DNA of 64,000 nucleotides from Lasiodiplodia sp. COLG20. Taxonomy: Eukaryota > Ascomycota > Dothideomycetes > Botryosphaeriales > Botryosphaeriaceae. Positions 17,973 to 52,739 of the stretch are shown here, in pieces (position 1 is the first letter of the stretch; each line of letters starts with the position of its first letter). The translations under genes were made by a program, and so were the position numbers. The notes below the pieces were generated by a model. That model did no database searches and had not been told where the DNA came from. It was given only the letters and a program-made list of their open reading frames with translations. The stretch covers positions 1 to 64,000 of the forward strand of contig VNWV01000049.1 in assembly GCA_009801085.1 (NCBI GenBank). The letters are read 5' to 3'.

Positions 17973-18910
17973 ATGTTTCTCATGAAGTTCATTGACTGTA
18001 TCGACTGCCATGTTCAGTACGGAGGGGTCGGAAAGCACAACAATCCAGTCAGCTCCGCTATCTCGGAGATCAGGAGTATCTGTGATATTGGCGTAGATGT
18101 GCTTGTATCGATTGGCACCGGCTACGTACCTGATAGACTCTCGATACAGGGTGCTAGACACCTCCATTCCGCGGTATTTCAGATCGTGGGAGTCCTTAAG
18201 AAATGGCCAGAAGATTGGGACGATTTCTGCAGACACCTCGGGGAGGAGGAGAGGCAAAACTACTTTCGTAGTAATGTCCCTCTTGACCGCGCGCCGGATC
18301 TGGATGCCATAGAGTCGATGCCTAAAATCCGAAGCACTGGAGTTCGCTTCTTGCAGAATATGGACCTACAAAGTATCCGCCGATCTCTGCTCTCATCAGC
18401 ATTTTTCTTCGAGCTAGACGAGATACCTGTAGTCAACGGCACGCTTCTTGAGTGTCGTGGTTCAATTCGATGCAGAAGTCCTAACAGCCGAGCGCTTATA
18501 GAAGGGCTAATTTCCGACTTCCCCCATGCCCGCTTTCAAACCCAGTCAAACGAGACGTTGGCGTTTGTACAAGATGCCGTTATATGTCAAAAATGCAGAC
18601 TCTACAGGGTTAGAGTGCAATTTCGAGTTGACTCTACTGATCAAATTGTCGTATTGCGTCTAAAGTTCAGCGACCAATTTAGCAACAAGATAAGCGGATT
18701 TCCAAACTCGATGTCATGGTTCGCGGCATGACAAGGACTGTACAGCCCTTTCGGAAGAGCAGATCATCAACTGTCCATTCGAGAATGCAAGTGCCCCGCG
18801 GAAAGGACAGGCCAGAGGAAGAGAAAAGCTTCGGCCCAGTCGACAGGTTGTTGATGAAAACTGTTGTCAACCATCATCACCAGTATGAATACGACCGTTG
18901 GATCATAATG
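17973..18910 (+). pseudogene. C-terminal remnant of a patatin-like protein
   Basis: The frame from 17973 aligns with the C-terminal half of the intact patatin gene at 49351-52739: GKHNNPVSSAISE and VSIGTGYVPD match the region after the catalytic Asp. Further on IRCRSPNSRALIEGL and CRLYRVRVQF match IRCRSPNPRAVVRRL and CGLYRRRVRF. The catalytic Asp of the D-G-G motif is replaced by Tyr (codon 18018-18020). A TGA at 18729-18731 interrupts the frame, but homology continues beyond it (QGLYSPFGRADH against QGLDSPFGSADH). The N-terminal half with GGGxRG and GxSxG is absent. It therefore cannot be an active lipase. Confidence 0.85.
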
Positions 18911-19006
18911 GGATGAACCCCGTCTCAGTTTGTCTGATCACTGCTATGTAACCTGCTCAAGAGTGTACTCAGAGGCGAACAGTTCCCAAATGTTTGCCAA
19001 ATAGTT

Positions 19007-19294
19007 CTAAGCTACACTCCTCTTCAAAACCCCCTTGAGTCTTTTGAGACGCCTCTCGTCCTCGTCTGACTGCCTCTTCATCAGGCTGAGTTGGTCTTTC
19101 AGCTGCTTTATATCTTCATCTTGGCTTAGAATATAACGCTGTAAACACGTAAACAAGAAGCTGTGCTCTTCTAGCTTTTGTTTGGCTTGCTCAAGGGTGA
19201 AATGTGGCGTGGTATTCTCGGAAAGTTGCTGAGTGGGCGGGCTGTGCGACTGCAATCGCTGGCGCTGGATGCCCATCAACGGGTCGGAGTCCAT
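19007..19294 (-). CDS. Small coiled-coil hypothetical protein
   Basis: A 95-residue ORF with biased composition. After a Gln/Ser/Pro-rich N-terminus, residues 34-90 form a probable coiled coil (LEQAKQKLEEH, EDIKQLKDQLSLMKRQ, EDERRLKRLKGVLKR), and the C-terminal basic cluster could be a nuclear signal. It begins with M-x-S-D-P, as does the longer coiled-coil protein at 46604-47512. I see no homologue or splice sites. Function unknown. It might be a fragment of a larger gene. Confidence 0.5.
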   Translation of the reverse strand: MDSDPLMGIQRQRLQSHSPPTQQLSENTTPHFTLEQAKQKLEEHSFLFTCLQRYILSQDEDIKQLKDQLSLMKRQSDEDERRLKRLKGVLKRSVA

Positions 19295-20255
19295 AGTTAC
19301 ATTGTTGCCTGAGCGAGTGGTCTAGAATTCCTTTAGTCTTGACATAATTAAAAGCTCAACCATGACTTACCACCATATTGAGAGGTAGGTGAATAGTAAA
19401 TTTTGTCAAAAAATAGAAAGGGTGTTGAGAAGGGTATGTGGAGACTTTGTCGGGAAAGTGCTTGGTCTATTCTATTGGCTTGTTCCAGACCCGTGAAAGA
19501 TAAAAACAAGTAGAAGGAATGGGGAAGGGGCGAACGGTGGTGTAGCTACGCGTTCAAATATTTCCTATCATAGAAGCACAGCTTGTTCAAAGGCTAACAG
19601 GGATGAAGGATATCAGAGGTCGACCATGTTTTCAATCGCGCCTGATCATGCCCCTCATGCAGTGACCACGTTGCAGCCTTGCGGTACGAAATAGACCTAC
19701 GCTACGCCCACAAGCTTGCCTCACGCCTTCTACGGATTACACGCGCCGTAGCAGCTCAATTGCAAGGTTTAGTGGGGGTTCACCTTAGCCTGTCATTTCT
19801 TCCCTTAGCCGCTCCTTTTTTTCCCTTGACGCCTTGCGGCTGTGCAGCCACTTCCATAATCGCCAAAAACTTCGTAACCCTGTGCTAACCTTCCCCCCCT
19901 GCCCCTGCCCCTGCCCCTGCTGTGTGACGAAAAACCCTGTGTACCGAAAAATGACCGAGGTACTTTGAACTTCAAGCAACTTAGAAGATGCGACTTTGCT
20001 TATACGCTTTTAAAATTAGCTTTAATGCGCTTTATAGATACTTCTCCTTACTTATGACTCTCCGGTGTACTATTTACACAAGGGTGGTTGTCCTCTTGCC
20101 GCGGTTTCTGCAAAGTACACGCTGGGGCCACAAACGATAACTCCCTTCTACAACATCTCCATCACTCCTTTTTTCTCTACAAAATCTTATGTAGGAGACT
20201 AGTCTATTGTAGAGACTATTTCATAATGCTAGAACGTCATTAGTAATAATGTACG
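19295..20255. other. Non-coding interval with a short CCCCTG minisatellite
   Basis: About 960 bp with no credible gene. CCCCTG is tandemly repeated about four times at 19896-19920. Confidence 0.4.
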
Positions 20256-20650
20256 TGATGTAGGAGGCGAGTTCGCCACGCAGGTCGGTACCTGTTGTGG
20301 CAGTGGGCCGGCACCCGCCACTGGCAGGGCAAGGACCTCTGGTGATATAAGCGCTAGTGGGCAGCTAGTCGGCCGTCAGGTAGACCAAGCTGGCGTACTC
20401 TTTTGCCCGGTGACAGAGTGACAGCTGCCCGTTATTCCCATCACACTGTTAACTTAGCTTTGGCCAATTACGGCTAGCTGTAATATATGTAAAGCTAGGT
20501 CAGCTCGTCTTCTCATTCCCGCTCGCTTGAAGCGCACGACTCAGCCCTCTGTTGTCCAATAAGATAACCAACTTCTCACAGCCGGTCTGCTTAGTAACTG
20601 CTGTTTAATACATTGCAGCTAGCTGCGTGGCGGATTCTTCTGCTACATCA
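20256..20650. repeat. Probable solo LTR
   Basis: Starts TGATGTAG and ends CTACATCA, a perfect 8-bp inverted repeat with the TG...CA ends expected of an LTR, 395 bp. A TATA-like stretch and GGTGATATAAGC lie in the middle. No 5-bp target duplication is visible (GTACG and CGCAC). GCCACGCAGGTCGGTAC at 20275-20291 recurs near 41003, so related sequence is dispersed here. Confidence 0.55.
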
Positions 20651-21206
20651 CGCACCCTGCTGCTAATAGTAACCCAGTACGTACTTCAACTTTAAAGGGT
20701 ATATGAATCTCTCTGCCTAGCTTTTTTTTTTTTTTTAGTAGAAAAAAAGCATTCATGGTGCTGTAGTAGAGCAATATCGTTCGCAACATCAAACCTTGTC
20801 CTGTAGAAATCAGACAAGAGAAGAACCACGCCTATGTAATATTAAGTTTGAAACACTTCGCAAGCAGTTTAAATGGGCGTGGGATATGTCTAGCATAGTT
20901 CTATGAGAATATCTATACAGATACTTCTATAAAGCTGCTGCAAGTCCGAAGTACCTTGGGCCTTTTTCGGCACACAGGGGTTTTCGTCACACCGGAGGGG
21001 AGGTCAGTAGTCTTGTTAGTAGGAAGGTGTTGACTGATTTCACGCGTCAAAGTTGACATTTTTCTGTGTGGCGGCATCAACATAGGACTTTTAATCCACA
21101 GTATCAGTTGAAAAGTTTCATGAATATCGCATCAGTAGGTACAGCGCCTTCAGATTTGCTACTTGGTCCTGAGAGAAACTGATCACCAGCTGCATCTGGG
21201 AAGGGG
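20651..21206. other. Non-coding spacer between LTRs
   Basis: About 550 bp. Contains a poly-T run near 20720 and no gene. Confidence 0.4.
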
Positions 21207-21211
21207 CATTG

Positions 21212-21638
21212 TGTAACGGCGGGCCTTTGCCTCTAAGGATTATCACACCGAAGAGGGTGAAAACCTGTCGTAAGGGTTTTCCTTGAGTGGGTACAAGAAG
21301 AGGTCGGGAACGTAGTGAGTAAGACGCGACTGAGCACTGCGTGTGCGAAGGCCTAGTTACCAATAGAATCCAAATCCTATTGTTGAAGTTGACCACGAAG
21401 GTCAAAGCTATCTAGGGAGTGTGGTTTATATACAGGTAGGAGAGGTTCATACAATCTGGTATGCTCTGGTTTGCTCTGTATTGCTCTGTAAGGTTGGGGG
21501 CTAATCCGAGGTAGAGCATTGTTCTCCGAGCAGAGCAAAGTCTCCGCGTCACGTGGGTCCTTTTCACGCCGGACGTGTGCACCCCACTTTCTTCCTTATC
21601 CTGCCTCTTCCTAACCCCGTGGAGGCTGTGCCGTAACA
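21212..21638. repeat. Solo LTR, family A, perfect 5-bp target duplication
   Basis: Begins TGTAACGGC and ends GCCGTAACA, with the imperfect inverted termini and TG...CA ends of an LTR. Flanked by CATTG at 21207-21211 and 21639-21643. 427 bp, no internal retrotransposon sequence. Highly similar to 23144-23630 along most of its length (for example CCTTGAGTGGGTACAAGA, TGGTTTATATACA as likely promoter). It has one CACGTG (21550-21555). Confidence 0.93.
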
Positions 21639-21643
21639 CATTG

Positions 21644-23138: not shown

Positions 23139-23143
23139 CCTCT

Positions 23144-23630: not shown

Positions 23631-24014
23631 CCTCTCTATTAGTCCAACAAATGTAGCTGTTATCTAAGAGTGTATGCAGCGTAGTATATTAAAAGTAGAC
23701 AGTCAGTTTTTATAGAAGAATTTAGGTTATAGAACATGGTGTATCTCAAAAGAGAGAAGCCACCCTTATGATTGGTGGTTTGTGATGCTTTATGTTCTGA
23801 CAGAATGCCTTGAGCTATAGCTGTAGACGTTGTCTATTGCAAATTGGTTGAGTATGCTCAAGCATTTCACTAGATTTACATTGATTTGGATATGTTGATT
23901 TGATACTATCTAAGGTCCGAAGAGCAACTGTTTTGCCTCCTTAGGCGATGTTTTCAGTACGTCGTCAGAGTAGACAACATTTAATTTCAATTTCATGATG
24001 GTCAAAATAGCCTC

Positions 24015-28669: not shown

Positions 28670-30176
28670 ATGGATGCTGTTCATATCTACGGTATCGTTG
28701 TTGCGAGCCTTCTCCTTATGGCGAGCGTTCTGCCTCGCCTAGCAGCGATCATTCGACTCGTATTCGCCGTACTCATAAGGTTGTGGCGCATCACTGTGGA
28801 CACAGGCGCCAAACACTTGGCCTTCTCATACGTTATCGAGCGCCATCGGTACATCGGCCCATGGACGAGACTGGATGTTCTCGTATGCACTGTCTACTTT
28901 GCTATGAACGTCTTCTGTGTTACCTTCCGGGTACCTTCATGGCCAGAAGCGGGCCGCCGGGCTGCAGCTATGTGTCTAGTAAACATGATTCCCCTCTATA
29001 TCGGGCCGCATGTTGGATACATGGCAGATGTCATTTTTGTACACAGGAGGATCTATATCCAGATCCATCGTTGGGCTGGCATCGCGGCACTTGCGACTGC
29101 TTCCTTCCATGCATGTGTTGCATTTGGCAGCGTCAAGAATCAAAATATATACTCGCTTATCGTAAGATGGCGCCCATCTTTACCGACCCATATATGCTGA
29201 CTCCAAGCAGGCCCCGATCGTATTTGCTGTACTGACTATCACGTCCCTTACTCCGATCAGAAAGTATTCGCATGAACTATTTCTCCGCTTTCACCAACTC
29301 TCAAGTATTATTGGAGCTGTCAGCCTTTGGTGGCATTTCCCAGCCACCAACACCTTCCTTTTCATCTGCCAAACGGTGTCCGCTATCACCTTCCTCACAG
29401 CTCTTGCCACCCAAGTTGCGATGATACTTTACCGCAACGATGTCTATCATGGGGGCCCGACGGCGCGTATTACCGGCTCGGACGAGCTGTTGCAAATCGA
29501 CCTCGAGCTAAAAAAACCTCTGTGTATCCAACCAGGTCAGTACATAAACCTCTGGATCCCCTCTCTCAGCGTCTGGTCGTTCGCCCAAAGCCATCCATTC
29601 ACCATAACATCGTGGTCGGAGACGCCGGTACGTAATCTGCGCCTCGTCGTCGAGCCCCTCAATGGGCTTACCCAGAAGATGGTTGAGGCGGCAAAGCGAT
29701 CGTCGGAGTCGCGCACAGCGCTGTTTAGCGGACCCCATGGCAGAAATATTGCTCTAGAGAGCTACTCAAATGTTGTCATGGTTGCTACCGGGCTTGGTAT
29801 ATTTGTACAGCTGCCGTACCTGCAGAAGCTGGCTCATTGTTCTGACAAGAGGCGGATCCATGTACTGTGGTATATGGGCGAAGAAGATGGAAAACAAACA
29901 CCAGGAGTGGCATACGATATGGCTAAAGATACTATTAACAGGGCCCTAGAAAAAAATCATGTTTGTTGCACTCTTGATACTCTTCGCGTGTTCCTTCGCT
30001 GACGTCTGCGGTAGGACATCCACCTGTCTTCCTACAGGCCGTTGCTAGATAAGGACGAAGAATATGGCGATCGGGTAAAGATTTTTCATGGTTCACCTCC
30101 ACTACACGATATCCTCCATCAAGAGGTTAAAACGAGGGCCGAAAAACAAGAAAAAATCGTAGTGTTGGGTGAGTAA
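28670..30176 (+). pseudogene. Ferric-reductase-like gene FRE1, truncated and probably frameshifted
   Basis: Exon 1 28670-29161 and exon 2 from 29211 are joined in frame by a 49-bp intron (GTAAGA, CTGAC branch, CAG). Family function: plasma-membrane transfer of electrons from NADPH through FAD and two haems to ferric chelates. Both haem-ligand pairs with 13-residue spacing are present (HRWAGIAALATASFH and HQLSSIIGAVSLWWH). So are the FAD motif HPFTITSW and the start of the NADPH site (GPHGRNI, ATGLGI). After an A7 run (29949-29955) the frame meets a stop at 30000-30002. A later frame (PLLDKDEEYGDRVKIFHG) continues the family sequence but ends at 30176 in IVVLGE, before the C-terminal Cys-Gly-Pro motif that FRE2 retains. 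The NADPH domain is therefore incomplete. Confidence 0.8.
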
Positions 30177-30939: not shown

Positions 30940-32314
30940 TTACGGATCTTCTTTCCGTCCGTAGGCCCACGGCTTCCAAGCAGCCATGTTCGAAAACAGC
31001 ACTAGCCATCTGAGTTCCTCTCTTCCCTTATCCGCTTGCTTAAAAAAAGCCTGATTTCTAAGAATGCCCTGATCCAAAGCTAATTCAATCTTCTGTGTGT
31101 GAGGGTATTGGTAAACCTGGTCCATACCCTCAACTTTAAGGAATGGCTTCTCCATCATTCTTCTCACCAAGCTAGCACCATCAGGATACGCACGTTCGCA
31201 GTTTGCTAAAGCTTTCTTGATCTCTTCGCTACCATTTACTTTAATCTTAGTCATTAGTTCAATGGCCACGCTGCTCAGCGCCTCGAGATATTGCGATCGA
31301 TGCTCATCGTTGAAAACGGGCGTAGGCACCCAGTTCACATGCCCCGCTGGGGTTAATGTCAGTATTATCTATCAAATAGCGGGCTGTAGGCCGATCGAAC
31401 TTACCGATTTTGACGTCTCCAGCTAACGTCACCCACGTGTTTTCCAGATTTTCCGGCGGGACATGGAGCATCTGGCGGGCTAGGAACTCTATGCCGTTAT
31501 TCATCTGCATGAGTTACTACGGACCATACCCTTTTCATAGCTGCTCATCACTAACTTGCTTCATGATTGTCGCGATGTGGCATTCCCAAGGCCAGGCCAC
31601 ACAATTCACAAAGTCAGCGATAGACCCTTCGCAGAACTCCATAATCGCGAAGAAGCTGTTGGCTGAAACGGGGAAGCTGTACGGTTCAACAAAGTGCACA
31701 ACATTCTGATGCCTGAAACTGTAGATCAGATTGAGGATTTCCTGCGCGCTGTCGTTATCTATCCTCTGTGTAACCGTAACTTTGCTCACAATAACCATGT
31801 CACGCGGTGAGTCCTTTCGTAGCGCAACAGCGACATCACTCCCCCTGCCCAGCGTGAAGTCGAAGACTCGCTCAAAACTCTGCCAGGGAGAAGAGAGGGG
31901 AGTTTTCCGCTTCTGATCTCGATCTTGAGGTGCGGTAGCTGTGGAACCATCTATGTGTTCCTCCCGCGATGTGTTGAGGATTAACTCTTGCAAGCGGCCA
32001 GTGGGCCGCACCTCTTGGCCCTTCGGCCACTTTTTTCGAATGGCACCGGAACTTTTACCCTGGCTGGAGGCGGTGGGCTGTTTGACTGCTGTCTTCTTGG
32101 GATGCAAGGCAGCGTGGTGGCTAGAAACATGGTCCAAGCCTGGGAGGCGGTCTGGAAGCCGGGATACCCTGTGTTCGTCACCTTGGCTCATTATGTTTAG
32201 TAGAAGAGTGGTCGGGGAACAGGTCACAGTCGGCAGGGTCTGTTGTGTTTGAGATAATGGCACAGAATTCCCTGCGCTTAATTGAGGCATCCAGGCCTCA
32301 AAAATATTCTTCAT
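30940..32314 (-). CDS. Protein kinase-like protein with lost catalytic motifs (pseudokinase)
   Basis: Exons 32314-31556, 31504-31405 and 31346-30940, introns 51 and 58 bp (GTTAGT, GTAAGT donors), giving 421 residues. Residues 1-145 are a low-complexity basic region. An N-lobe follows: glycine-rich loop LGRGSDVAV and the VAIK-like lysine K178 (VIVSKV), then RHQNVVHFVEPY and the hinge-like IMEFCEGSIADFV. The C-lobe starts normally (NNGIEFLARQ, VTLAGDVKI), but the HRDLKPEN position reads HVPPEN and the DFG position reads AGH. The catalytic Asp and the metal-binding Asp are both missing. The rest of the C-lobe is short. Phosphotransfer is unlikely; a scaffold role is possible. An alternative start is the in-frame Met at 32191. 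It is divergently paired with DUF3723 only 80 bp away. Confidence 0.7.
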
Positions 32315-32394
32315 GATAAGCCGCGAATGGCCGTCAGAAGCTACGACTCAGAGAAGTCTGGGGAATCACGCAAACTCACAGATCAGCATCAATC
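32315..32394. promoter_or_regulatory. Very short divergent intergenic region
   Basis: Eighty bases separate the proposed start codons of the pseudokinase (minus) and the DUF3723 gene (plus). If both starts are right, the two promoters overlap each other and probably each other's 5' leaders. Using the internal Met of the kinase widens the gap to about 200 bp. No specific binding site recognised. Confidence 0.35.
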
Positions 32395-35300
32395 ATGGAC
32401 TTCGCAAACGGTCAGTCGGACGAGCTTCTTGATGCAGAGAGGCGCCTGAAGTATAGGGGATCCGCTCGTATAAGTCTCGAAAACTTAATATTCTGCTCTT
32501 CCAATGGCAGCAAACTTGATGGAAAAGTTGTAAATCATCTCAAGGCGCGGTTCGAAAGCGATGAGTGCTTCCGGCTGGATAAACGCAACCACATACCCGC
32601 GAAGATTGACCAAAAAGTTTTGGATAGGGCTCTACAGCTCTCGAACATCTCGACGGATGCGCTGCAAAGCAACGGGTTGAATGGGTATCCGCGGCTGACA
32701 TTGCCCGATGGCTGTCGGCTCGTATGCCTAGACGGGCGCCATAGGTTGCAGGCCGCATCGGAGTTCTTCAAGTTCTCCAAGAACAGATGGTGGACTGTTG
32801 ATCTATACCTCTCAGGTAGCAACTACGAACTGTCTCTTGTTATCGGTTGCTAAGGACATTGTCCAGATATTAACTTCGAGCTGAAAACATACCTCAGCGA
32901 GCAGTATATAGAGCAGAAGAAGCCAAGCGATGGCGAAATATATTTCATGATACAGAAGTATGATCGCAATCCGGATCGCGCCAATCTCAAGAATTGGTGG
33001 CTGCATATGCTGGTGCCCCGTAGGCGACTCAACGTCGAGGCGATCAGTCGTCACCCCAAAATCGAAGCGGCGCTGAATTCTCTGTTGGATATACCAGGGC
33101 TGTGGTATGGAAAAGGCTTCAGGCTCTCGACCTGGCATAAGATTCTCTCTATGAAGTGTGACGAGGTTGGGCTGCCACCACTCGCGAATTAAAGTTTACC
33201 CTTGCTGACTCGGAACTTAGGACATTATCGCCTACCTTGAGCACATCAATGCGGTCTGGTCAGGTATACTCGGCGAAGACCGCGAGAAGCTTCGAACCGT
33301 CGATCAGGTTACCGTCGAGGCTTTGCAGCTGAAAGCCCCTGGTGCGTCAGAATCCGACTTTGCCACCCTTCACGGTCAACTTGCGAGCGGCCAAATTTTC
33401 AACGGCCTGTCCCAAGCTGAGCGGGAGGCGGTATTGCAGAGCCTGATGAAGGTAGAAGGCATAATCCCCTCCTTCGTTAGCTTCTTCGACGACCTCAACT
33501 ACCACGGAGACGTGGTCCGCTGCATGCAAAGACTGGTGCCAAGATCGATGAAGATTTCGACCGTCACCAACTTCCTTGACCACTTCGATGCACGCAGGCT
33601 ATCCGAGCAGGAGTTACCCATTCAAACATCCGAAGCTGTCTTCGAGATCAAGTCCGGTGACGAGATGTCCCAGTTCTTGGTCGGCTATCTACAGCTTTAT
33701 ACATACGCAGCCCGATTCTACGACAAAATCCCCGATCAGCCGACTAGGAGCAACACCAAAGTCCGAGCAGGGTCTACTGTAGATGCGGCAACACTACACC
33801 GATTTGCACAGTTGGCAGCGCGCATGGGCTTTGACTCGCCGCAGATATCGGCCTGCCTGCGTCTGACGGACGGCCCCGGGCTGGCTGCGGAAGCAGGCGC
33901 TCCTGGCTCTCCTGCGCTTGTGGTTGGTGGCCCGGGAGAGCCGTTAAAAAGAAGGTCCGGGAAGCCGTTGAAACAAGACTATCAGCTCGACAAGCATTTT
34001 TTCTTCCTGGGTCACTTGATTGACCAATCTCGAAAGAGAGGGGAGGGAATCTCATCGTTCTTCGTTTTGAAGTCGAGATTTCATGCGTTTTTCTGGAAAA
34101 GCCTGCAATATGTCAGAAATCATGCGAGCGGACCTTGGCAGGTGCCGGCCGATGATCAGGCGCGAAACGTTTGCCCTGGAGCTAGTGTGTGGAACGATGT
34201 TAATGCTGCTCATTTCGATCGTGTAATGGGCCCAAGGCGGGTCGGAGTGGTAGACCCTGACGCGGACGACATACGAATAGCAAACAATGCCAAAAAAGAA
34301 GTTTCTGGGACAGGACAAAACTCAAGGATCAGTGCTTCGATTAGAGATGCGGTTTTGGTGGCTGATGCAGAGTGCGTCCAGGCAGTCGACAAGAAGAGCG
34401 CAGAGGCGCGACGCGAAAGTCACAGAGAAGCCACGCATGATGAGCCAATGTCGGATGTAAATAGCACACTCCCGCGACAACGCTGCGAGGAAGTGCCGGA
34501 TATGCGGCTTGATGGTGACCAAAATGCTCGCATTGAAGGCGACAAGAGCGGTGCTGAACGTTGTAGCGACGCAAATATGGAATGTCTGGGGGATTTGCAT
34601 GCAAACTCTGAAAGTGCAAGTGGTCTAGCGACGCGACGCGGTGTGCCGGATCATCGTCTGCAACCTCCGGAAGATGCCGAACATGAGATCGGTGTGGGTG
34701 CGACGGAAGCGTCGTTGCTCCGAAATGGTCAAGGAGATGAGGATCGGCAAAACCAAACCGAGACAGCACCGCCACCCTGGGTCCGGTCGATCGAGAATGA
34801 ACCGATGTCTGAACCGTCGTCTCCCGTAGAATTCGAAGACCCTAGCAAAGAGCCGTATCGGAGCACGGATATTGCTCACGAAGCGCCGCTAGCCCCGTTT
34901 GCTCAGGCCATCAACGCGGCGTCAGATACCCCGATGCTGGACTTGTCAAAGCATGAAAGGAATAGTAGAGGCGCGATTGAGCAAGGTATGACGATCGGGG
35001 CTCCCGATTTGCGACATATCGGTTTTGGTGTCGATGGCGCTGCACAGCAGCGGCATGGCGGCCCGGAAACCCGGCATCCTCACGTGGAAGGTCTTGTCTC
35101 ACAACCTCCACCCGAGCAACAAACGGCACAGCTGCATGAGCATGAGAAAGAGAGTTTCGACGCACAAAACATCGTATCACCACCATCTTCTGTATACAGC
35201 TCCCAGGACCCGGGACCGCCACCCGGCGACATCCAGTCTGTGTACTTGCAACCACAATCCGCACAGCCGATACAACAGCGGGAGCCTCTTGACGAGGACA

Positions 35301-35947
35301 ATTGCAGGCACTCAGCACTCTGGAGATACATTGCACAGTCTCCGGAGGGACATAATTCTGACGTTCATGGGGACATTCATGTACCAGCACCGCATGAGCA
35401 AGACGGATCTTGGTTCCAAGCTCCTGTCGAAAACAATCTTGGCTCAAAGGCGCCTTCACGGCTGCCGTCCCCGCAACACAGCAGGCCAGCTTCGAAAACC
35501 CACCAGGGAGCTAGTAGCGGTCACGTGCCTATGTCATTAACTGCGCATTTCTCTCCGCCGAAGCGCGCTTCACCAGGTCCCAAGATTAGGCATGACTGTC
35601 ACATCAAGTTCCTGATTCAGAGTGAGGATATGCAATCCTGGGTCTTGTTTGATGAAATACTGGACGAAGACAATGCGGAGGTGCAGATGGAGCGATTCCT
35701 TCAAGAACAAATCAGAAGGGGAAGGTTCGCAGTCATCAACGGCCGGGGAGGAATGCGCTCGGTAGGTCCACGGGACTGCTACAGAGCATTAAGAGAGTCG
35801 GCTACGGCTTCAGTAGTGCTCTTGGATGCTCGCAACTTGAAAAATGTGGACGACCAACTTCGAGAACCGCTCGAGAGTGTTCAGAGGAAGAGGAAATCAA
35901 TCATGGAATGGCCGACACGACAGCGACAAAAAATACATCGAGGGTAA
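32395..35947 (+). CDS. DUF3723 family protein
   Basis: Exons 32395-32815, 32867-33165 and 33221-35947 (introns 51 and 55 bp, frame continuous) encode 1148 residues. The N-terminal 450 or so residues carry the family's conserved stretches in order: SARISLENLIF, the FRLDKRNHIPA segment, LPDGCRLVCLDGRHRLQAA, WWTVDLYLS, DGEIYFMIQKYD, LPGLWYGKGFRL, and TVEALQLKAPGAS. The remaining 650 residues are hydrophilic, Gln/Glu/Pro-rich and probably disordered, ending in a basic VQRKRKS stretch. The molecular function of DUF3723 is unknown. The family is one of the accessory families reported repeatedly in Starship elements. The stop at 35945-35947 lies inside a perfect GTAAGC donor context, so the protein may continue into the exons at 36096-36652. 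Confidence 0.88.
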
Positions 35948-36095
35948 GCAAAGACGTTATGTCTCACCTCAGCAGGTGGTGCAGGTTTCTTGAGGCTAGT
36001 CCGTGCTTGGCTATGCTGCGAATATATAAGTCACGTCTTATCAAGCAATGAGTATCGTATGCCCCCGCGACCACGGCAAGACCTTATCACCTCAG

Positions 36096-36652
36096 AAACA
36101 CGGATACTGCAGTGGTAGTCTACAATGAATGGCTCAAAGAGTCAGATGAAGGAAAAATTTCCCTTGAAGTATACGGAAGGATGCTTATCGTCCTCATCTC
36201 CCTCTCCAAATCGACGAAACTCCAGTCCTTCTTTGGTATCGACGAGGCTTATTATGAAAGAAAACGACGGCGCAAACGATGGTCTCAGCTCTGTAGGGTG
36301 AGCGTGTTTAATTTATTGCTTTCCTCTCTTGTCTCAAACAAAGGAGCTAAAGGATACTGATGTTGCTAGCCCAATTCCTACGATAGCCTACCCTCCTCGC
36401 CAACCATCGCCAAAAAGCTCTCGTCCCAGAGTCCGGGCTCGGACCAATCAACCAGGCGACAAGTGGTGGCGCGTTGGTCGTATGCATGAACGCCCGTCGA
36501 ACCTGGTGGCAACGCGGCCTCAGAACCCAGCTAATCCCACTGTCACTCATCGGAAATATCTGAATGAAGTTCATAAGAAAGGCGGAAAGTATCGGAAGAA
36601 GCATGAAAATGACAAGGAGGCGTCCGAGGAGATTTTCGTGATGAGTGACTAG
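36096..36652 (+). CDS. Possible 3' exons of the DUF3723 gene, or a separate small basic protein
   Basis: Two exons, 36096-36297 and 36344-36652, with a 46-bp intron (GTGAGC, AAG). The reading frame begins without an in-frame ATG (VVYNEWLKESDEGKISLEVY follows directly from an acceptor CTCAG), so an upstream exon is needed. A splice from 35943 (CGAGG/GTAAGC) to 36096 keeps the DUF3723 frame open. The encoded tail is rich in Lys/Arg (YERKRRRKRW, HKKGGKYRKKHE) and ends EIFVMSD. No domain recognised. Intron length for the proposed join, 152 bp, is long for this window, so the link is only plausible. Confidence 0.5.
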
Positions 36653-37443
36653 TTCGCTCCAGTAGTTGCGCAAGAGAATTTCATAGTTCTGTAATAGATG
36701 TCTTGTTGAACAGGGTGAGGTTAAGATATACCACTGCTGTGGTGCGCACGCCGAACACTGCGTTACATACGTGATGATGCCTTTGCACTTTCAACAATCG
36801 TAAGGTGACTTGATAATGAAAACGTATTCGTTCACAGAAATGCCAGAAACAGTATATTAGAAATTATTAATTAGTATTAGCAGTGACAGATGATAGTCAT
36901 AATTGAGGGATTTGAAAGCATGCTATGAATTTGATAACTCTCATACATAATCGGAATTCAGGCCTCGGCGATCCATGAATGATGTTGAAAACATTCTTTT
37001 CAAACTTGAACAGATTTGGAAAATGAAGTTTGAAATATTGGAAGTCGGTCAAACCGTCTCACAAAATCAAACGAGACCTAATATTTCTGTGTCAGAAGGC
37101 GCTACAGTAGATCGACTGTAGCTCAAACCACAACGAGCCTGGATGTAGAGAGATATTACATGATTTTGAAGTGTGCTACGTCTCACGGGGGTTGACCCAA
37201 CTGTAATGGTACGCAAAGAACAAAGACATGATCAATGTGCTCTATGAGCATGATAACGTAGTATTCTTTGTATACTGGTTAGGAAATTCAACTCAGCCAG
37301 CCGTGAAAAATTCAACAAAAAAAAGTCAATCGTTTTCTTATACTCGAAACCAAACAAAGTACCGATATTGAAAACGGGTTGATTGGCCATGCGTAATGCT
37401 GAATTGCGGACAAAAACAACCGAGCCCAATCCAGTAACGAAAT
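36653..37443. other. 800 bp without a confident gene
   Basis: AT-leaning sequence with no credible frame. Probably the shared 3' region of the plus-strand gene before and the minus-strand ORF after it. Confidence 0.4.
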
Positions 37444-39099: not shown

Positions 39100-40630
39100 T
39101 TGACTCTAGTAATGCACTGTAGAGCGTCTCTGACAGGAATTCTTTTTTTCTCGAATTAGAGAGTAGTAAAGCCACACCGGAATAAGAGGATGGATTTAGG
39201 CAGGAACAATTACCATAGTCAGGTCAATGCGGCCACTTTTCGATTATCGCTCCAGCTAAACCGTGCTGATCTACGTTATACCATGTGGAAGTCTGATATA
39301 TAGATAAATAGTAGAGAGCGACTGCTTCATTGATACATTGGTTAAATTCGAAAAGATCACAGCCGAAGACTGTTTCTTATGAGCTGGCGGGTCTCACGTA
39401 AGCCGATGATGATTTTTTGTCGGCACCCTTGGCCCGCTTACCATATGAAAAAACCATCTGAGTTCCGCTGTAGTAGGTCCACACTGCTACTATTCAAACG
39501 TTTTCCTTAAGATGGATGTAGGCTCCTCTAGACTAATGCCAAACATAGTAATCGTATTATTAGTCTAAGTCTATACTAGTTGGTAAGATCTGTTTTACCA
39601 TCTATAGACTTATAGCACTTACGCGAATTTGATTCATAGAAATGTGTATCTAAATGAGCTAGCCATAGAGACCTTCTAGTAGTACTCGATTGTAGAAGCA
39701 TGAATTGGTGGGCTACAAGTAGCTCGATGGCGTGGTAGTACGATTCGATCAGGGCTTTCACAAGGTCAGCCGGAAGCGACGGCTCGTACGTGCGCGATCT
39801 CGATAGAGACAGTTATGTGGCTGGTACCTTAGGAAAACTTACAAAATGTATGTTGATATGGCTAAACAGCTAGTTAGATAGAGGTGGCAAAATTGTGTCG
39901 AGATGCACCGCCGCTTCCAAGGCTCTCCGGGGTGCTCTACAATGTGGTGACTTACTGCAACACGAAAATAGTGGGCCCTGTATTCTCCTACGCTGACGGT
40001 ACCGGTAAAGATGGCGAATGCGATTACATAGAAGTTGACGCCTCGCCAGACTTGACAACCGCCTTGTGCAAAGGCATTTGGACTACGGAACACATACATA
40101 GGCCTTCAAATTGCCCTGGGAAATTACGCTAGATATCTCCTATTACTCTACAGTGCGCATCGACTAGAACAAGATGATCACTCAAATGTGCGAGGAGGGA
40201 AGACACCGAACTGCTCAGCAAAGATGAAAAATAAGACAGCTGCTCTCTTCAACGTTTTGGGCAGGATCTAGGCTTATGGCTGCAACTCAATATCTGTATC
40301 GTCAGTCTACCACCAATTCTAGCCGAACTAGTACGCACCACGCACACGAATGATCCACTTAAAATCTAATTATCACCAACGATTGAGCTCAATTTGTCCG
40401 ACGTTAGCATCGCCACCACGAAGCCACATTACATATGAGCGTACGACGGAACCTATAGGATACTGTGTCTTGACCAAGGATTGGAAGACTCAGTCAAAGT
40501 ACGTGTCAGTCATCACCACCATCTTCTATTGTTACTTAACGTTATTGTTTGCCTTCCCAGCAGTGTGTTAAGCGCTGACATTTTGTAGGAAATGGAGAGC
40601 TAAAGAAGAGAAAGATCATTAGAAGCAACA
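39100..40630. other. 1.5 kb without a confident gene
   Basis: Short frames only. Overlapping frames at 39839-40132 on both strands look partly protein-like (SYADGTGKDGECDYIEVDAS on plus) but cannot be extended by splicing or matched to a family. Confidence 0.35.
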
Positions 40631-41434: not shown

Positions 41435-42361
41435 TTAGATCTGTTCCGCTTCAGACTTTTCAGATAAATCATTATAGAAAGTAGCCAGAACCCTCTCCGA
41501 TACTAATCGACTGGGATGGTCTTCTACGAGCACTTTCGCTTGTATCGTGACGACATGCTCGAGTAGCTCGACTGCGTCCTTAATCTGCCCGTTTGCTTGG
41601 TATGCTCGGGCGAGCTCGTACTGCGATAACAGTCGATCTGCGTCATCTTCGACAAGATTTCTATCTCTCCATTCGTAAGATTCCTGTAGCCAGAGAACAG
41701 CTTCATTTATCATTCCATCAACGTGTAAGCACCGTCCGACCCTCAAGCAGAGCTCGCTCGTTTCGTATGTACCTTGACACTGTTCATTTTTGTGTATGCG
41801 TGCCACATGCGGTAAATAATCGCGCCAGATCTCGCGATTTTGGTAATCTTCGGACGGAAAGACTTTCGAGAGGTGTTTTAGTGCCGCTACGCTCGTCGCT
41901 ACTTCCACCCCGTTCTGAACAAGCCATGTCCCAGTCGCCAAATGGAAAAGCCGATGCATATCAAATTTCTTGCCATCGCCTCGTCTCTCTAGAAACGAGT
42001 AGGCGCAGAGCGTGCCGATGGCCTCCACTAGCCGGGCTTGGGGATGTTCTGCCGGTAGAATGGAGTACGGAATCGCTTCCCATTCGATGCAAGATATGAA
42101 GGCAAGCAGATCTGCCGCTAGTTTGTCGTGTTCAAGAATCTCGTTAAACGTAATCGTCCATGTCTTTGCGACTGCGTTTGCCGAGTTCGGATATCGCGTC
42201 TTGTCGTCAAAGTTCCGGCTCAGAACGATTACAGCATTCTCGTCTGAGTTCTTCAACAGCAGGAGATAGTCGGAGATGGGAATTTTGTTTGTGTTGATAT
42301 AGGCTGCCGCCTGCGTGATAGCCAACGGGAGGCATTCTAGCTCATGGAGAAGATCTATCAT
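41435..42361 (-). pseudogene. NLR remnant: ARC region plus tetratricopeptide repeats
   Basis: 309 codons from an ATG at 42361. The frame starts at the conserved LPLAITQAAAYI segment of fungal NB-ARC proteins, followed by AKTWTITFNEI and the winged-helix-like LLAFISCIEWEAIPYSILP, then the MHRLFHLATGTWL motif. From about residue 225 it has TPR-like repeats (LLSQYELARAYQANGQIKDA, VELLEHVVTIQAKV, VSERVLATFYND). The P-loop (GxGGIGKT) and N-terminal effector domain are missing: upstream sequence goes straight into the FRE2 promoter region. The C-terminal frame also stops early, while the sequence to 41287 stays open in another frame. Normal fungal NLRs sense non-self and trigger heterokaryon-type cell death. 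This one lacks its nucleotide switch. Confidence 0.75.
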
Positions 42362-42659
42362 GATCCCGTCGTTGTCATGTTTTCGCTAAAGACATCGTAG
42401 CTTGATAAAACTGGCCCAATTCGACCACCTATTTTAGGAGATTCAACGTTATTGTCCGCGCTGAACTGGCTGCATTTGCGTGCTCTCACTTAATTTGTCA
42501 GTACTTAGGGGTTTGGAAATGAACGGCTTCCAATAGGCTTGACAAGAATCTGCCTCATTTAAATACTGGTCCGGACGCAAAACATACATGTAAGTCCTCT
42601 GTTCAGCTACAGAACTATCTCGCCAGCCAAAGTTTGTCTTGTTTATTTTCTTCGTTACC
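42362..42659. promoter_or_regulatory. Divergent intergenic region between NLR remnant and FRE2
   Basis: About 300 bp separates the two start codons. It should hold the FRE2 promoter and leader. Because the NLR lacks its 5' half, the breakpoint of that loss must lie at or near 42362. Confidence 0.4.
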
Positions 42660-44494
42660 ATGCCCGACGAGCCTGTCGATAAGCTTTTTGGCGAAGCTCG
42701 GTGGCTTCTATTATCATGGGCAGCTACTGTGACCATTGTTACGCTCTATTCGACCTACTTCAGGTTAAGCCGTCGGATTCGTCAGCTTATTTGCCTTGAC
42801 AAACCCATCCAGAGATACTTTTTCGAACCTAACAAGATCCATGCAGCTTTTAAACATCATCTACTCGACGCTCCGTGCTTTCGATACCGCCATTTTCAGA
42901 CCTTGACAATTTCACAGAAGCTACCAATCGGGAACTTACCAGGCCGATGTGAGGCTCTTTACCTTTTTCTTCATTTCTCGGTAAATATTCTGCTCCACGT
43001 CAGGTCGATCGACTGGAGCGATGAACACACAGCTACTATTACCTTACGCAGCCGCTCGGGCACTTTGTCTACTCTACATATCTTCGCCGTCGTTATGCTT
43101 GCAACTCGCCACAATCCACTTACGATGCTGTTTGGAGTGCCACGCCGTACAATTGGTGTTCTCCATCGCTGGTTTGGACGGATAGCAATCCTTGAAGCCG
43201 TTATCCACGCAGCTGCACACATTACCTTGCAGATTCGCACATGTACGTGAGATCCGCGTTGAAAACCACTCAGCGGCTAATTACATAGCTGGATTCGATT
43301 TCATCCTGGAATCCCTCCACGCAGATGTTTTTCTTCTCTCTGGAACTACTGTAGGAAGCAAAACCGAGCAGACGCAGATCGTGGTGTACATTCGCTGAAA
43401 AGAAACAGGGAACACTGACTGCGATGCTGATTTTGGTACAGACGGTTGCGGCGCTTCGATTTGTTGCTTACGAGATGTTTCTTCTGCTGCATATACTCCT
43501 GGTTGCTGCCACGATTGCTGGAGCATACATACACTGCCGGGCTGGTGGACTGGTCCAGCTACTGATCGTGAAGTGTACAATTCTGATATGGTTAGTCGAG
43601 GTGAGCCGATTCTAGATGGAATTACCAAAGGTGGAACACGTTCTAAATCCTAACTTCAAGCGAGCCCTCCGACTCGGCAGTGTCTGTATCCGAAGTGTGG
43701 GCTCTGGCGGTATCAGTGCGACAGTGGAAATTGATCGCGATGAAGCATTGCGTATCAGACTTCATCATAAAAGACCATGGAGAGCTCAACCGGGACAGTA
43801 TATTTATCTGATACTGCCCCGAATAAGTTTTGGCACATCTCATCCCTTCTCGATCGCGTGGGCCCAGGAAGTTTATAGCGCGCAGGGAACGCGACAATCG
43901 TCGACTATAGACCTTATTGTCCGTCGTCGCTCCGGTTTTACGAAGAAGTTGTTCAACGAAACAGTCTCGGAACCTGGACAGAAATTGACCACAGTAGCGT
44001 TGATTGAGGGCCCTTTCGGCTCTGAAGACCTATCCTCTTATGGAACAGTCGTCTTGTTTGCTGCCGGAATTGGCGTCACGCACCACTTGCAACAAATCTT
44101 GCATCTTACAAAATCATATGCGAACCACACCGCCGCAGTTAGACGTATAACGCTTGTGTGGGTAATTCGCTCCACGGGAGCTTTTGAATGGATTCGTCAG
44201 TGGTTGATTGACATTGTGGAGAGCCAAGACCCTCAAAGCGGGCTTCTTAGGATCATGCTCTTCGTTACAAAGCCAGATGCGGAGTTACCCCAAGCGTTCA
44301 ACGGATATCCGGCGCACGTATACTTTGGCAAGCCCAATTTGCAAGGGATTCTGGAACGACTCGTGTATGAAGATGGAGGCGCAGCGGCCGTAAGCGTATG
44401 TGGGCCGGGCAGCTTTGCAGATGATGTGTGCAAGGTCGTGAGATCACTGCAGCCAGTGTGGAATGTGGACTTGTATGTGCAAGGGTTTTCTTGA
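42660..44494 (+). CDS. Ferric-reductase-like transmembrane protein FRE2
   Basis: Exon 1 starts at ATG 42660 and runs to about 43246. A middle exon runs from about 43377 to 43600 (start uncertain). The last exon is 43661-44494, joined by a clear intron 43601-43660 (GTGAGC, CTAAC, AAG). Electron transfer from NADPH via FAD and bis-haem across the plasma membrane is the family role. Evidence: haem pairs HRWFGRIAILEAVIH and HILLVAATIAGAYIH, both with 13-residue spacing; the FAD site HPFSIAW; NADPH motifs IEGPFGS and FAAGIGVTHH; and the C-terminal VCGPGSF. All expected parts are present, in contrast to FRE1. The first intron has two possible splice pairs; GTGAGA at 43247 to CAG at 43376 keeps the frame. 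FRE genes are a recurrent Starship accessory family. Confidence 0.85.
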
Positions 44495-47512: not shown

Positions 47513-47581
47513 GGTGCAATAGTCAATGCGATAGGTAGAGGTTTTGGCAGCGATGAAGGTTCGGTGACTGGGAGTGGCTGG

Positions 47582-48249
47582 CTAAATACCCAACGGCTCA
47601 GCAGCACAAATGGTCAAGTCGGCGTCTCGGGGCCGGAACAAAAAAAGGGTTATCTGGCCAAATAGGCTAGCTGGATCGTCCGATATTGACGAAATAATGG
47701 TCTGCGATTCATTCACACAGTAGTTAGAAAGAGGGAAAGAGTATTCTCCCATCTCAAGTACTGGAATCATGGCGATGAAGGCGTATATGAAGTATGAACA
47801 GCAGAGCACCTCTCCATGCTGACTTGCTCACAAACCGACTCCCAATCCTTTAGCAAAGAGATAGACATATTTCCTAGAGGTTGAGCATGCATTTCTGTCG
47901 GAACGATGAGCATAACATCGCGGGGAGATAGATTGGCCTTGTGTCGAGTGCATTTATTCGAACTGTCATTGTTCGTTTCTTCAGACACCAGTCTTATTCC
48001 CTTGAGCCTCACTACATTGAAGCACCATAACCACATGATCCCAACTGCTTTATTTTCAGTGGCTTCAGCATTATAGTTACCTTGCCTCCGTCCATTCTCC
48101 GAGCATAACGAAATGTCTTCAAATCCTAAATTGTACAATCTGCAAAACTGCTCTCTAGTCATAATACCGCGGCCGCGTGGGGAGAAGAAGGCATCCGGCT
48201 GTCTCGCGTTCCGTGTCCTCGCTAACACGTCACTACCGAGGAGGACCAT
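47582..48249 (-). CDS. Hypothetical protein, paralogue of the broken copy at 16288-16700
   Basis: The 48249-47767 frame reads MVLLGSDVLARTRNARQPDA and continues through FCRLYNLGFEDISLCSENGR to GNYNAEATENKAVG. GGACGGAGGCAAG/GTAACTA is a potential donor after the segment shared with 16 kb, where the two copies stop matching. Further down ANLSPRDVMLIVPTEMH looks protein-like, then a frame change leads to 47809-47582 (VLEMGEYSFPLSNY). The exon structure is not resolved and no domain is known. The promoter-proximal 240 bp (48249-48480) is part of the same repeat. Confidence 0.4.
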
Positions 48250-48480
48250 GAACCACTTGGCTCGCCCCTTGACAGATCATCTACAGTCCTACATAGCGCA
48301 TATTGTCCACGCCGCCCCCCCATATGAGTCGCCTGCAAGAAATCCAGCAAGATCGCAGTGGTGTTGTCAGCGCAGAATGCGCCGATACCACGGCCGTCGT
48401 TTCGCTGCGGGGTTTCGCTGCGGGCCGTTGCCGAGCACGGACACTACTGGTTGTGGGCGCTCCCCACTTGCGCATTCTAG
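48080..48480 (-). repeat. Inverted copy of the 16288-16700 segment
   Basis: Matches the 16-kb copy in opposite orientation over about 400 bp with high identity, including GTAGTGTCCGTGCTCGGCAA and CATATGGGGGGGCGGCGTGG. Differences include C/T and A/G changes and short indels. The similarity continues into coding sequence of the 47582-48249 gene and stops at its first putative splice donor. Confidence 0.8.
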
Positions 48481-49350
48481 CAGCTTCCGCATACAGACGT
48501 TCGGCGGTAACCGTGACGCAGAACCGGAGTGCCTACTGCTCCCTGCTCTGTGCTCCAGGAACGCGCCGCACTCGGTCAAAAGCGCCACGGCCGTTTCGGG
48601 TTAGGCCGGGACTCAACCGTGTCCTCGTAATTTAGGCTATGGTGCTCAGGGTCTTCGCAGGTACCCCGCCGACGGTGCTAATGGTCGCCTCTATCTCCTT
48701 CCTACGGCATGCCCTTGGTGCGACGTCTTCAGGGCTTTGCGACTGTCATCAGTCGTGTAAGTGAAGGGGCGGGCTGGGGCCGAACGGATGACGAGCGGAG
48801 GTCCGGTGATAGATTTGCTCCCACTCATGCACGTCATGATGAGGCTGGGGAGAGATGGTCATTTTGAAGGAGCCTCTATAGTAGATGGAGCGAGAATCTG
48901 ATGTGATAATATTTCTTTGTTCTCAATTTCATACCTCTGCCTCTCTGTACAGTTGTGAAACACCTGAATAATAAAAGGGAAGAAACATTCCAGAGCTTAT
49001 ATACATCGCTGCTGAGCTATGTGCATGTTCGTCTTTAGCGAGTAGAACGCGTACTCGGAGGTTAATCGAAAGGTTTAAATTCACGAATACTCGTGAAACA
49101 GTAGGAATACAACGGTGTGAGTTCGTTTGCGGGTACTTGAAACCATGCACATTGACAGAATACATATTTGAGGTGCTTGAGGATCAATCAATAATCCGAA
49201 CAAAGCTGCTACTCTTCCTCACAGTTACCTATGTAAATGGAATAGAGACGACAGCGATAAAGGAATGTAAGACAAAGAAGTGGACGTCGCTGCCCCATGC
49301 CCGCCGCCACCCGCACCACCATCGCTAGCACCCCCGGCGATTGAACGCAT
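48481..49350. other. 870 bp without a confident gene
   Basis: GC-rich part 48481-48780 with stop-broken frames, then AT-richer DNA. Probably flanking sequence of the repeat and the 3' region of the patatin gene. Confidence 0.4.
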
Positions 49351-52300
49351 TCATCGTTGGCTACGCAACTTTTTTGGAGCCCTCATGTTAACCTCTTCAG
49401 ATGCTTTTCTTTTCCGGGGAAGGCATTGAACTTCTGGTGGTGCACCCTTGCCAATACTCTTTTCGACTGGACTGAGCGGCGTGTTCAAGCTCCGCTTCGG
49501 CCCGAGACGTGAGCTTCTCTTCGTTGTTTCGACTGGAATCTGATTAAATTTCATGCAAACGCTTCTCGATGACTTGGAGCTTTGACTCGTGACCTTGACC
49601 ACAAACTTACCCCTTCTCCTCGACACGCACCCACAGGGCCTGCCATCACCTACGCTGTTGTTGACATGATCCGCGGACCCAAAAGGCGAATCCAATCCCT
49701 GCCTTTCGACGAACCAGCGCATCTTTCTCGACGGCTGGAATGCGCTAATACTCCACCTCCGCGTTTCATCAGACTGCACCGCAATCCCGACATCCTCATC
49801 GAGATCGCGAACTGCGAACCGCACTCTTCGTCTATACAGCCCGCAATCTTCGCAAATATCTAGCTCCTCGACCGGGGCGAGTAAACAATCTTTATCTTTG
49901 ACAAATGCAGCAGCGGTATATTCCTCCAGAAGTCGGCGAACGACAGCGCGGGGATTGGGGCTGCGACATCGGATCGTCGCGCGAACCTCCCAGCTCCCGC
50001 CAACATATGTGGGAAGGGCGTCGAGCTCGAGGAAGAATTGCGTACACAGCATGGCATGTACGATAGTCTGGATCTCGCAATCTGTTTGAGCTTGAGCGCG
50101 CGCCTTGTCGCGCAGCTCCGGTACGCGCTGCGCATCGTCGAGTGCCGGCAAGTCAGTGAGCGGCAGCGTAAGGCGGAACTTGTTGGACCGTTCCGCTTCC
50201 CCCTGCAGATGCCGCTTGAATGTCATTTCACTTTCTGAGGAGAACTCGATAGACTTGCAGATGCCATGCAGGAACGTGCGTGAGAGGCATGTTGGCAGCC
50301 AGGTCGATGGGCTCGGGGCGGTGGCATAGCCCGTGCCGGTAGAGACAACGAAGTCAGGTTCTTGCGCGGCAGGCCAGATAAGTCGTGCTTCCCATTTGGC
50401 AGCGTCGATGGGATTGTTGAACTCTCCGATGCCTCCGTCTTGGAGATGGCAGCTGAGGGCGGGGATGTATTTCGGCGGAAAGATGCTATGTGGCGGGGTT
50501 GGTAAGGTTTGTCAAACTTTCAAACAATTAACTTACGACGGAGCTGCCGAGGTAGCTTGAGCACTGTTCAGCGTCAGTTTTGGTATCTCCTCTTCTCTCA
50601 TCAGGAAAGCACGAACGCGTCACATATCAACACTTCATCTTCGGGGTTCTCTGGTCGGACGTGTTTGTAACCTATGCGCATATCAGCAAGCGCTGTTGAT
50701 ACAGGGTATACAGCATGGATGGAGCAGACCGGGATCCTCTGGGCGTGGCCCGCCGTTGTAGTTAGTCAAAAGACAGAGGCGCCCATCGCTGGTGGATAGG
50801 CCTGTTACTGCAACTTTTATTCCCGACAAGCCTCCTTGCTCTGCGTCGAATAGCCTTTGCCTCCGGCCGTACACACGCTTGAGGCAGTCCTCTAAGACAG
50901 TCACATCGTATCGTCCGTTTGCCATGATGGCTTTGACGAACTCGCATAGCCAACTGCACATGGGAGCTTTGGAGAAACGCTGGGGCTGGAAAACACGTGT
51001 CGCCAGGGTATCGAATGAAGACAGACAAAAGTTGACATCGCGCCGTTTCAAGAACATGAGAAGTACGATCAAACCCCCTGTGCGTCCCTGTTAGCAAAGC
51101 TCTTAGTCAATGGAATGTTTGCCTGCTGTACCGGAGCTTGTCCCGACAGCAAAGTCGAAATCGTCCTGGATGGGATACGGGAGCCGCCTGGCTAGGCTTA
51201 ACGCCCTAAAAAGTTCCAGTGACACAACGCCTCTCGCACCGCCGCCATCGAAAGTCGCAGTGCGGTAGCTCGCCGTCTTTGGGACCAGTCGGACGGTCAG
51301 CCGGGTGGAAGTCTGGCACAGAACGCAATGCGTCACGTCGTATGAGGCTTCTTTGCTAGGAGATGAGGCATAGAAGATACGTATGCAAGTTTCGCACAAG
51401 GCGTGCTTGCAGCGTAACACTCTTTCGGGCGCACACCGAAGGCAGCAGAGACATGTCGTGTTGCTTCTAAGGGGAGTCAGGTACTCGGTCATGGATGCCA
51501 TGGTTTGGCGGTGCAGCGCGGCGGCGGTGGCTTGTGGCTTTGCCACGGCCTTGGCCAGTGCAACAAAGTGACGTTCCACCTGGGCCGTTAGTGCAGCGGT
51601 GCGGCATCCCCTTACCGCCTGAGCAGCCGCGTGGCGGAACAGCTTGCGGTAAACGACTCGGAACACGGCGTAGGGGTCAAAAACTGTATACACACGCACA
51701 TAGTCAGGAGCCGCCGGCACGTACGAAGGTTTGGAACTTGAGATTGAGGGGAGATGGTCCTACAATGCATCCCCGGAGGGTAATGATCCAGCACCATCGC
51801 AGACGCTACATACTCCAAGGGGATTCTGCCGCCAGTACAGAGTTTCAGAAAAGCTTCCAGGTGGTGCAAGAAACCGGCGTGGTCGAGTCTGTTTGACATT
51901 CTAGCCAGGAAAATCGCGTTGAGCTCCTGCTCTGGATTCGCCACCACACGCTCAAGCGCGCGCTCGAAGAGCGCCGCCACATGGACCGCCGAGAAAAATA
52001 CCCCCCCTTGCTTCCGATCACTACGCGATATGCTGAGCATCCCGAGTAGCGATGCGCGTAGCCCACTGTATAGCGCTGCTGGCGACAGCTGCTGTGCGTG
52101 GCGGAGCTCGACAACCTCGACCCCGGCGAAGACGGTGGACACATCGGCCAAGAGGTGCATACTTGCGACAGCTTGTGGGTTCCTGGTTACAATGAGGAGC
52201 CGCGGCTTGCCCATATGGCCCGCGGAGCCGATGGCGGCCCATTCAGTCACGCTTGCAGCTATGTCAGCAAGTCTGGGGAAGTCGTCAGCGAAAATGCAAA

Positions 52301-52739
52301 GCACGTTTACGAAAGAAAGCAGCAAGCGAGCGAAGATGCGCGTCGCGGTTTGTTGTTGCGTGAGGCCTTTGCTCCACGACATGTTGAGCTGCGTCATTTC
52401 ATGGCAGCCGTGGCTTTCGCCAGCGGGCCGATCGATGTCTATCTCGCCAAACAGGATCGGATGCTCCGAATCGTGGGACTTGTTGTCGGCTCTTAGATTG
52501 ACTAGGCCTTGGCTACGATGCCTGGTAATGTTGTTTTCTGGGTATAGCTCTCTTAAGGCAGCGGTTTTGGTGGCTCTACCCATGAATAGGACCAGAGATG
52601 GGAATTGACCCTTTGCATCTGGCATGCCACTGACTATCCTCTTCAAACGGTTGCTAGAGAGTAGGGACCAGTTGTGGTCCGTCTCGTGCAGTTGCAGCCA
52701 TTCAAGGTGATTACAAGCGACCATTTCTGCCGCAGTCAA
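49351..52739 (-). CDS. Patatin-like phospholipase with central RING-like cysteine cluster
   Basis: Multi-exon minus-strand gene from ATG 52739. Clear exons: 52739-51764, 51683-51132, 51077-50730, then 50671 onward with two more introns before the last exon ends at 49351. Residues 1-325 form a domain I do not recognise; SLVLFMGR, PILFGEID and PRLLIVTRN recall a degenerate GTPase fold. Next is a zinc-binding RING-like cluster (CLCC, CKHALCETC, HCVLC). The patatin domain then has the oxyanion motif DGGGARG, the nucleophile GTSSG (split by the 51131-51078 intron) and the Asp motif QDGGIGEFNNP, so the Ser-Asp dyad is complete. The C-terminal region ends in a basic KKLRSQR. Expected activity is acyl-lipid hydrolysis. 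Patatin-like genes are recurrent Starship cargo. A dead paralogue lies at 17973-18910. The intron near 50600 is the least certain. Confidence 0.85.

Follow-up and report, generated by a model that had tools for sequence, protein, structure and literature searches.

Contig C44 of the Lasiodiplodia sp. COLG20 assembly is very probably a cargo-bearing segment of a Starship, the captain and edges of which were lost or are unassembled. Starships are giant transposons moved by a DUF3435 tyrosine recombinase, the captain. The window analyzed here comprises bases 1 to 64,000 of C44, which is 76,313 bp in total, and an initial annotation of its sequence had read the window as cargo, or a degrading remnant, of such an element. 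That reading is now supported by DUF3723 and one patatin subfamily, each found solely on C44 and in two clusters linked to captains, of which one is a bounded Starship. The genome analyzed comprised 43.5 Mb in 88 contigs, and loci are given by contig label (C1 to C88). Gene models are predicted exons read from sequence, with putative splice sites throughout, and Pfam profiles with Pfam cut-offs served as the test of each gene named in the initial annotation.

Starship-type genes on C44 and their distribution in the genome

The genes on which the argument turns are the following.

6140..9049, plus strand: JmjC-domain gene (ORF 6204-8774 and adjoining ORFs)
17834..19887, plus strand: truncated patatin fragment and downstream DNA in common with the C45 cluster, by DNA alignment
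28670..30002, plus strand: FRE1, ferric-reductase-like by Pfam, with no NAD-binding end seen
32395..36655, plus strand: DUF3723 gene (PF12520) with open exons, its end placed by eye
41435..42385, minus strand: NLR fragment, with TPR repeats by Pfam and the end of a nucleotide-binding region by eye
42660..44494, plus strand: FRE2, with three ferric-reductase domains matched by Pfam, Ferric_reduct over its first half only
49351..52757, minus strand: patatin gene with a predicted GBP/atlastin-fold N-domain, a RING-like region, and patatin
57678..58031, plus strand: small conserved gene of 117 amino acids, with copies in all three clusters

Pfam and reading of the sequence confirmed the genes first named in the window, namely FRE1, the DUF3723 gene, an NLR remnant, FRE2, a RING-patatin gene, and a dead patatin, and the proposed starts of FRE1, the DUF3723 gene, and FRE2 coincided with methionine codons in the correct frames. 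DUF3723 was matched in two open reading frames (ORFs), at 32,320 to 32,850 (E value, 7e-25) and 33,221 to 35,944 (2e-60). The predicted protein was 55% identical, over 98% of the query, to a 1,228-amino-acid protein of Neofusicoccum ribis (P0002), the sole named relative found, and 99% identical to a second protein (P0001), and the last exon was matched to the relative by eye. FRE2 matched Ferric_reduct (1.4e-9, over profile positions 2 to 61 of 121 only), FAD_binding_8 (9e-14), and NAD_binding_6 (1.5e-18). The FRE1 ORF at 29,166 to 29,999 matched FAD_binding_8 (2e-11), with Ferric_reduct below the cut-off. FRE1 looks truncated, because no NAD-binding domain was matched by Pfam or visible past 30,002. 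The JmjC domain was matched at 4.5e-23, and the small gene matched no Pfam family.

The NLR remnant was borne out by TPR_12 (5e-13) in the ORF at 41,438 to 42,385, but its nucleotide-binding domain was unmatched by Pfam and was assigned by eye. Likewise, the dead patatin placed at 17973 proved by DNA to be a truncated piece of a patatin gene, but Pfam recognized no patatin there. DUF3723, FRE, patatin-like (PLP), and NLR genes co-occur on C44, and the mixed decay noted earlier was upheld: truncation is seen in the NLR gene, FRE1, and one of the PLP copies, and the DUF3723 gene, FRE2, the RING-patatin gene, and the small gene have open exons.

To locate captains, the DUF3435 profile (PF11917) was searched genome-wide and gave 10 matching pieces at four places, C45:1058k, C45:1200k, C45:1372k, and C56:403k. 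All 15 of the pieces matching DUF3723 were on C44, at C56:441-443k, or at C45:1225-1267k, and the patatin N-domain had three genome matches, on C44, at C45:1239.6k, and at C56:443.2k. DUF3723 and the patatin N-domain were thus each found solely on C44 and in the two captain-near clusters. The chance that two independent clusters would each be no more than 65 kb from a captain was 1.4e-4, or 5.5e-5 at 40 kb, both radii having been picked after the data were seen. The small ORF had four genome matches, three of them in the clusters (C44, C56:425.6k, and C45:1237.7k) and one at C88:1286.7k. A fourth cluster around the C88 copy was considered and rejected, as in the stretches 1281-1291k and 1353-1359k just that ORF and a FRE 71 kb away were matched. 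The C88 copy lies near an ORF that by eye is PCNA-like.

The bounded Starship on C56 and the C45 cluster

At C56:402,116-474,294, a complete Starship was found inside a 5S rRNA gene, with 72,155 bp between 12-bp direct repeats of AGAATGCAGGGC at 402,116 to 402,127 and 474,283 to 474,294. The captain is the first gene at the edge; its frame starts 850 bp inside and is transcribed inward. PF11917 matched it on three pieces; two exceeded the cut-off, and the third (24.8 bits) fell just short of the 25.8 bits required. The element contains the captain, the small ORF, a JmjC gene, a FRE, DUF3723, and a RING-patatin. The outer 80 bp held no terminal inverted repeats above shuffles (score reached by 115 of 500).

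Both halves of the interrupted 5S gene were identified. In a scoring of 47 candidates out of the 2,186 seen at first look, the 5S-like gene about 0.85 kb from the C56 captain scored 43.5 bits, the lowest among the 35 listed, and the other 34 scored 68 to 80. Its sequence was normal from about base 26 to the end and foreign before. Searching by pattern for the 5S front part gave 35 places, of which 33 were listed 5S genes. One of the other two, C56:474,283-474,313, lay in matching orientation and departed from 5S directly after CAGGGC. The second, C56:815266-815296, had three mismatches and may be an old insertion edge or an unscored 5S copy. When the C56 flanks were joined, they aligned end to end with a 5S gene on C2, with three substitutions and one 1-base gap. 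The joined flanks rebuild a full-length 5S gene, and the empty site is therefore recoverable. We conclude that the C56 element provides a precise, testable empty site.

The C56 cargo (small gene, JmjC, FRE, DUF3723, and RING-patatin) matches that of C44 by family. Genes common to the two were 24 to 48% identical at the protein level, and C44 is therefore related to C56 in content and is not a copy of it. Shared termini were considered and rejected, just three 13-base matches (E value, 0.83) being found between the C56 element and C44. On the minus strand of C44, 39975..39986 reproduces the 12-bp Voyager target site, AGAATACAGGGC, exactly, with no 5S gene found around it; the chance expectation for this site on C44 was 0.009.

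The C45 cluster shares DNA with the window. A whole-genome DNA search covered window positions 1 to 17,000, and the remainder was compared as DNA with the C45 and C56 stretches. The 2.05-kb piece at 17,834 to 19,887 was 88.8% identical over 2,077 columns to C45:1241756-1243819. It corresponds, at 89 to 90% DNA identity, to the 3′ portion of the patatin gene of C45 and the DNA that follows it, the catalytic front half being absent. A/T-producing transitions at CpA are a mark of repeat-induced point mutation (RIP). The two copies differ by 164 transitions. In 111 of these the A or T is on the C45 side (71 at CpA), and in 53 it is on the C44 side (11 at CpA). The bias indicates that the C45 copy underwent mutation as a repeat, which scarcely touched the C44 copy. 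As a suggestion only, the C44 patatin copy may have arrived later than the C45 copy. Two of the three C45 captain loci had stops in their matched pieces, possibly introns, and the locus at 1058k had none.

The patatin gene and its predicted N-domain

The patatin gene of the window is legible by its motifs. GGGxR and GTSSG, which we take to be patatin motifs, and C-x2-C...C-x-H-x2-C-x2-C...C-x2-C, presumably a RING-like pattern, could all be read in it. The patatin score of 2.5e-4 on the ORF at 51,106 to 51,759 was below the Pfam cut-off, probably because the domain is divided among exons. A genome-wide patatin search returned 24 rows without the C44 patatin, probably again because introns split the domain. 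Pfam matched no RING in the window gene, and the C56 relative (0.011) was likewise below the cut-off.

Structure prediction gave the N-domain a large-GTPase fold of the GBP/atlastin type. The resemblance to GBP/atlastin large GTPases and RNF112 is one of fold only, with 7 to 16% identity over the GBP, atlastin, Sey1p, RNF112, and SMG8/9 rows. The Walker A P-loop is defined as GxxxxGK[ST], and no such motif was found in the N-domain. Unlike in GBP/atlastin and RNF112, the P-loop is degenerate (hGxxxK), such that nucleotide binding is putative, and the domain is fused to a patatin lipase; F-x-G-x-x-x-K was invariant in 5 of 5 and 7 of 7 aligned sequences.

We tentatively propose, at somewhat less than even confidence, that the Starship patatin-like accessory protein has three parts: a large-GTPase-fold N-domain, a region resembling RING, and a lipase of the patatin type. 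In this genome the N-domain was found solely in Starship or Starship-like clusters. Among the papers listed by the literature searches, none described a GBP-fold Starship patatin. From the predicted structure we infer that the RING-patatin would most likely act in self/non-self recognition or host control. If the three-part reading holds, these selfish elements would bring with them a membrane lipase joined to an immune-type protein of large-GTPase fold, which might target recipient or rival nuclei when elements are transferred horizontally. The predicted GBP-like fold suggests a possible role for one unexplained Starship accessory protein and, together with the bounded C56 element, is what the present analysis adds to the earlier inference.

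Contig ends, alternative origins, and comparison with known Starships

Features of the window other than its cargo genes are the following.

1..407, strand not assigned: left contig end, an inverted copy of the right end (C44:75948-76313) by DNA comparison
16263..16694, plus strand: left copy of an inner inverted repeat, 91% identical to 48502-48074
31535..32347, minus strand: partial protein-kinase-like ORF (Pkinase, 0.003, below the Pfam cut-off)
48074..48502, minus strand: right copy of the inner inverted repeat, 91% identical to the left copy

The two ends of C44 are inverted, not direct, repeats, identical over the outer 148 bp and 94.5% identical over the block at 225 to 407, with no other genome copy among the matches listed. 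The inner pair lies 31 kb apart, again with no other genome copy among the matches listed. AT-rich, RIP-marked blocks at 1 to 3000 and 11000 to 14000 are common to C1:3.34-3.36M, C12:3.02-3.04M, C45:1.13M, and C9 and are possibly pericentromeric. On the minus strand, 13860-14321 resembles a pogo-type transposase remnant by an eye-read motif, with no Pfam match. At default thresholds, no tRNA or Rfam features were found in the window. To the right of the window, C44:65053-66780 is a CSC1-like calcium-channel gene (RSN1_7TM, PHM7_cyt, and RSN1_TM).

Under the mechanism that we favor, the captain would excise a Starship and reinsert it at a short target, the 12-bp 5S site for the C56 element, and the accessory genes of the Starship would be transported with it. 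C44 would have lost, or been parted from, its captain and would now be decaying, with FRE1, the NLR gene, and one patatin copy truncated and with open exons retained in FRE2, the DUF3723 gene, the RING-patatin gene, and the small gene. C44 would be able to move only with a captain beyond the contig or one acting in trans, and it may itself have been mobile in the past.

Several observations weigh against a Starship origin of C44. The initial annotation saw neither captain nor element edge in the window and called for a PF11917 search of the flanking contig, and that search, extended to the full 76,313 bp, found no DUF3435 captain; tblastn with captain-region ORFs over the same length gave a best E value of 0.056. 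No captain stands as the first gene at a 5′ edge, although the true edge may be beyond the contig. No mapped element edge was found on C44, nor was a 5S half, just one 11-base match being seen. The top NLR relatives, C34:1896k (81%) and one on C75 (78%), lie on contigs with no captain match, as does the closest JmjC relative, C1:3198k (49%), which is followed by C56:430k (42%), C45:1157k (42%), and C45:725k (36%). The C45 cargo is behind its nearest captain (1200k, minus strand), on the wrong side. Long inverted repeats at contig ends are not known to be a Starship feature. Among the accessory genes of Starships, PMC12506042 names NLR, PLP, FRE, and DUF3723, and PMC10128009 also names such families. 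The earlier statement that Starships carry them holds to that extent, but they are not universal, as the Gaeumannomyces Starships in PMC12134995 are without most of these families.

C44 might instead be a composite, with pieces from a number of dead Starships and transposons brought together where repeats abound and RIP has acted. This possible but doubtful reading agrees with a single element on the Starship origin of the cargo but would not have the cargo form one unit. The occurrence of truncated copies of FRE1, NLR, and patatin next to genes with open exons would fit a composite, as would the AT-rich RIP-marked blocks at about 1 to 3 kb and 11 to 14 kb in common with repeat clusters on C1, C12, C45, and C9, and the 2-kb piece in common with the C45 cluster. 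However, DUF3723, FRE2, the RING-patatin, and the small ORF are all open within 26 kb, as in the C56 element. That C44 is ordinary chromosome, in which these gene families merely cluster and were never mobile, is highly improbable. FRE domains are frequent (20 matches genome-wide, of which 2 are on C44 and 2 are no farther than 65 kb from a captain), patatin returned 24 rows, NLR and JmjC relatives are present elsewhere in the genome, and a DUF3723 relative is present in N. ribis, but DUF3723 and the patatin N-domain occur in just three clusters, two with captains and one of these a bounded Starship.

The inverted ends raise the further alternative that C44 is a linear molecule in its own right, or another large element ended by 0.4-kb inverted repeats. 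Sampling of 1 kb from either end of 20 further contigs, out of 87, showed no like ends, and the absence of other copies among the matches listed would also suit such a molecule. Nevertheless, telomere repeats were found at neither end of C44, its genes resemble nuclear genes with introns, and assembly alone can cause a contig to stop where a repeat is shared. C38 and C41 have an identical 139-bp end in common, and assembly stops at shared sequence therefore seem to occur here. We regard a linear molecule or another such element as very unlikely and a repeat-caused contig break as the simplest reading of the ends.

A captain-less Starship segment thus remains the favored reading of C44, and it can be set beside known systems. 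In PMC10128009, the Voyager target site is AGAATACAGGGC in 5S rDNA. The C56 element occupies the same 5S site, its repeat AGAATGCAGGGC being this genome's common 5S variant with one mismatch to AGAATACAGGGC, and likewise has a DUF3435 captain at its edge; "Voyager-type" here refers to target site only, not to captain phylogeny. C44 differs from Voyager-type Starships in that neither captain nor 5S fragment was found and its 12-bp site at 39,975 is outside any 5S gene. The Sanctuary Starship of Bipolaris sorokiniana, as described in PMC12506042, brings FREs, NLRs, and PLPs together as C44 does, with DUF3723 named as an accessory family, and has a captain and mapped haplotypes, whereas no captain was found on C44. 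In the degraded Starship relicts and rearranged regions described in PMC11623301 and PMC12289983, as on C44, cargo outlasts Starship features and genes are partly truncated and partly kept. In contrast to those relicts, C44 retains the typical accessory genes of the element and not merely a host-useful cluster. Starship accessory genes can flag captain-less pieces of elements, for which the bounded C56 element is an internal control in the same genome.

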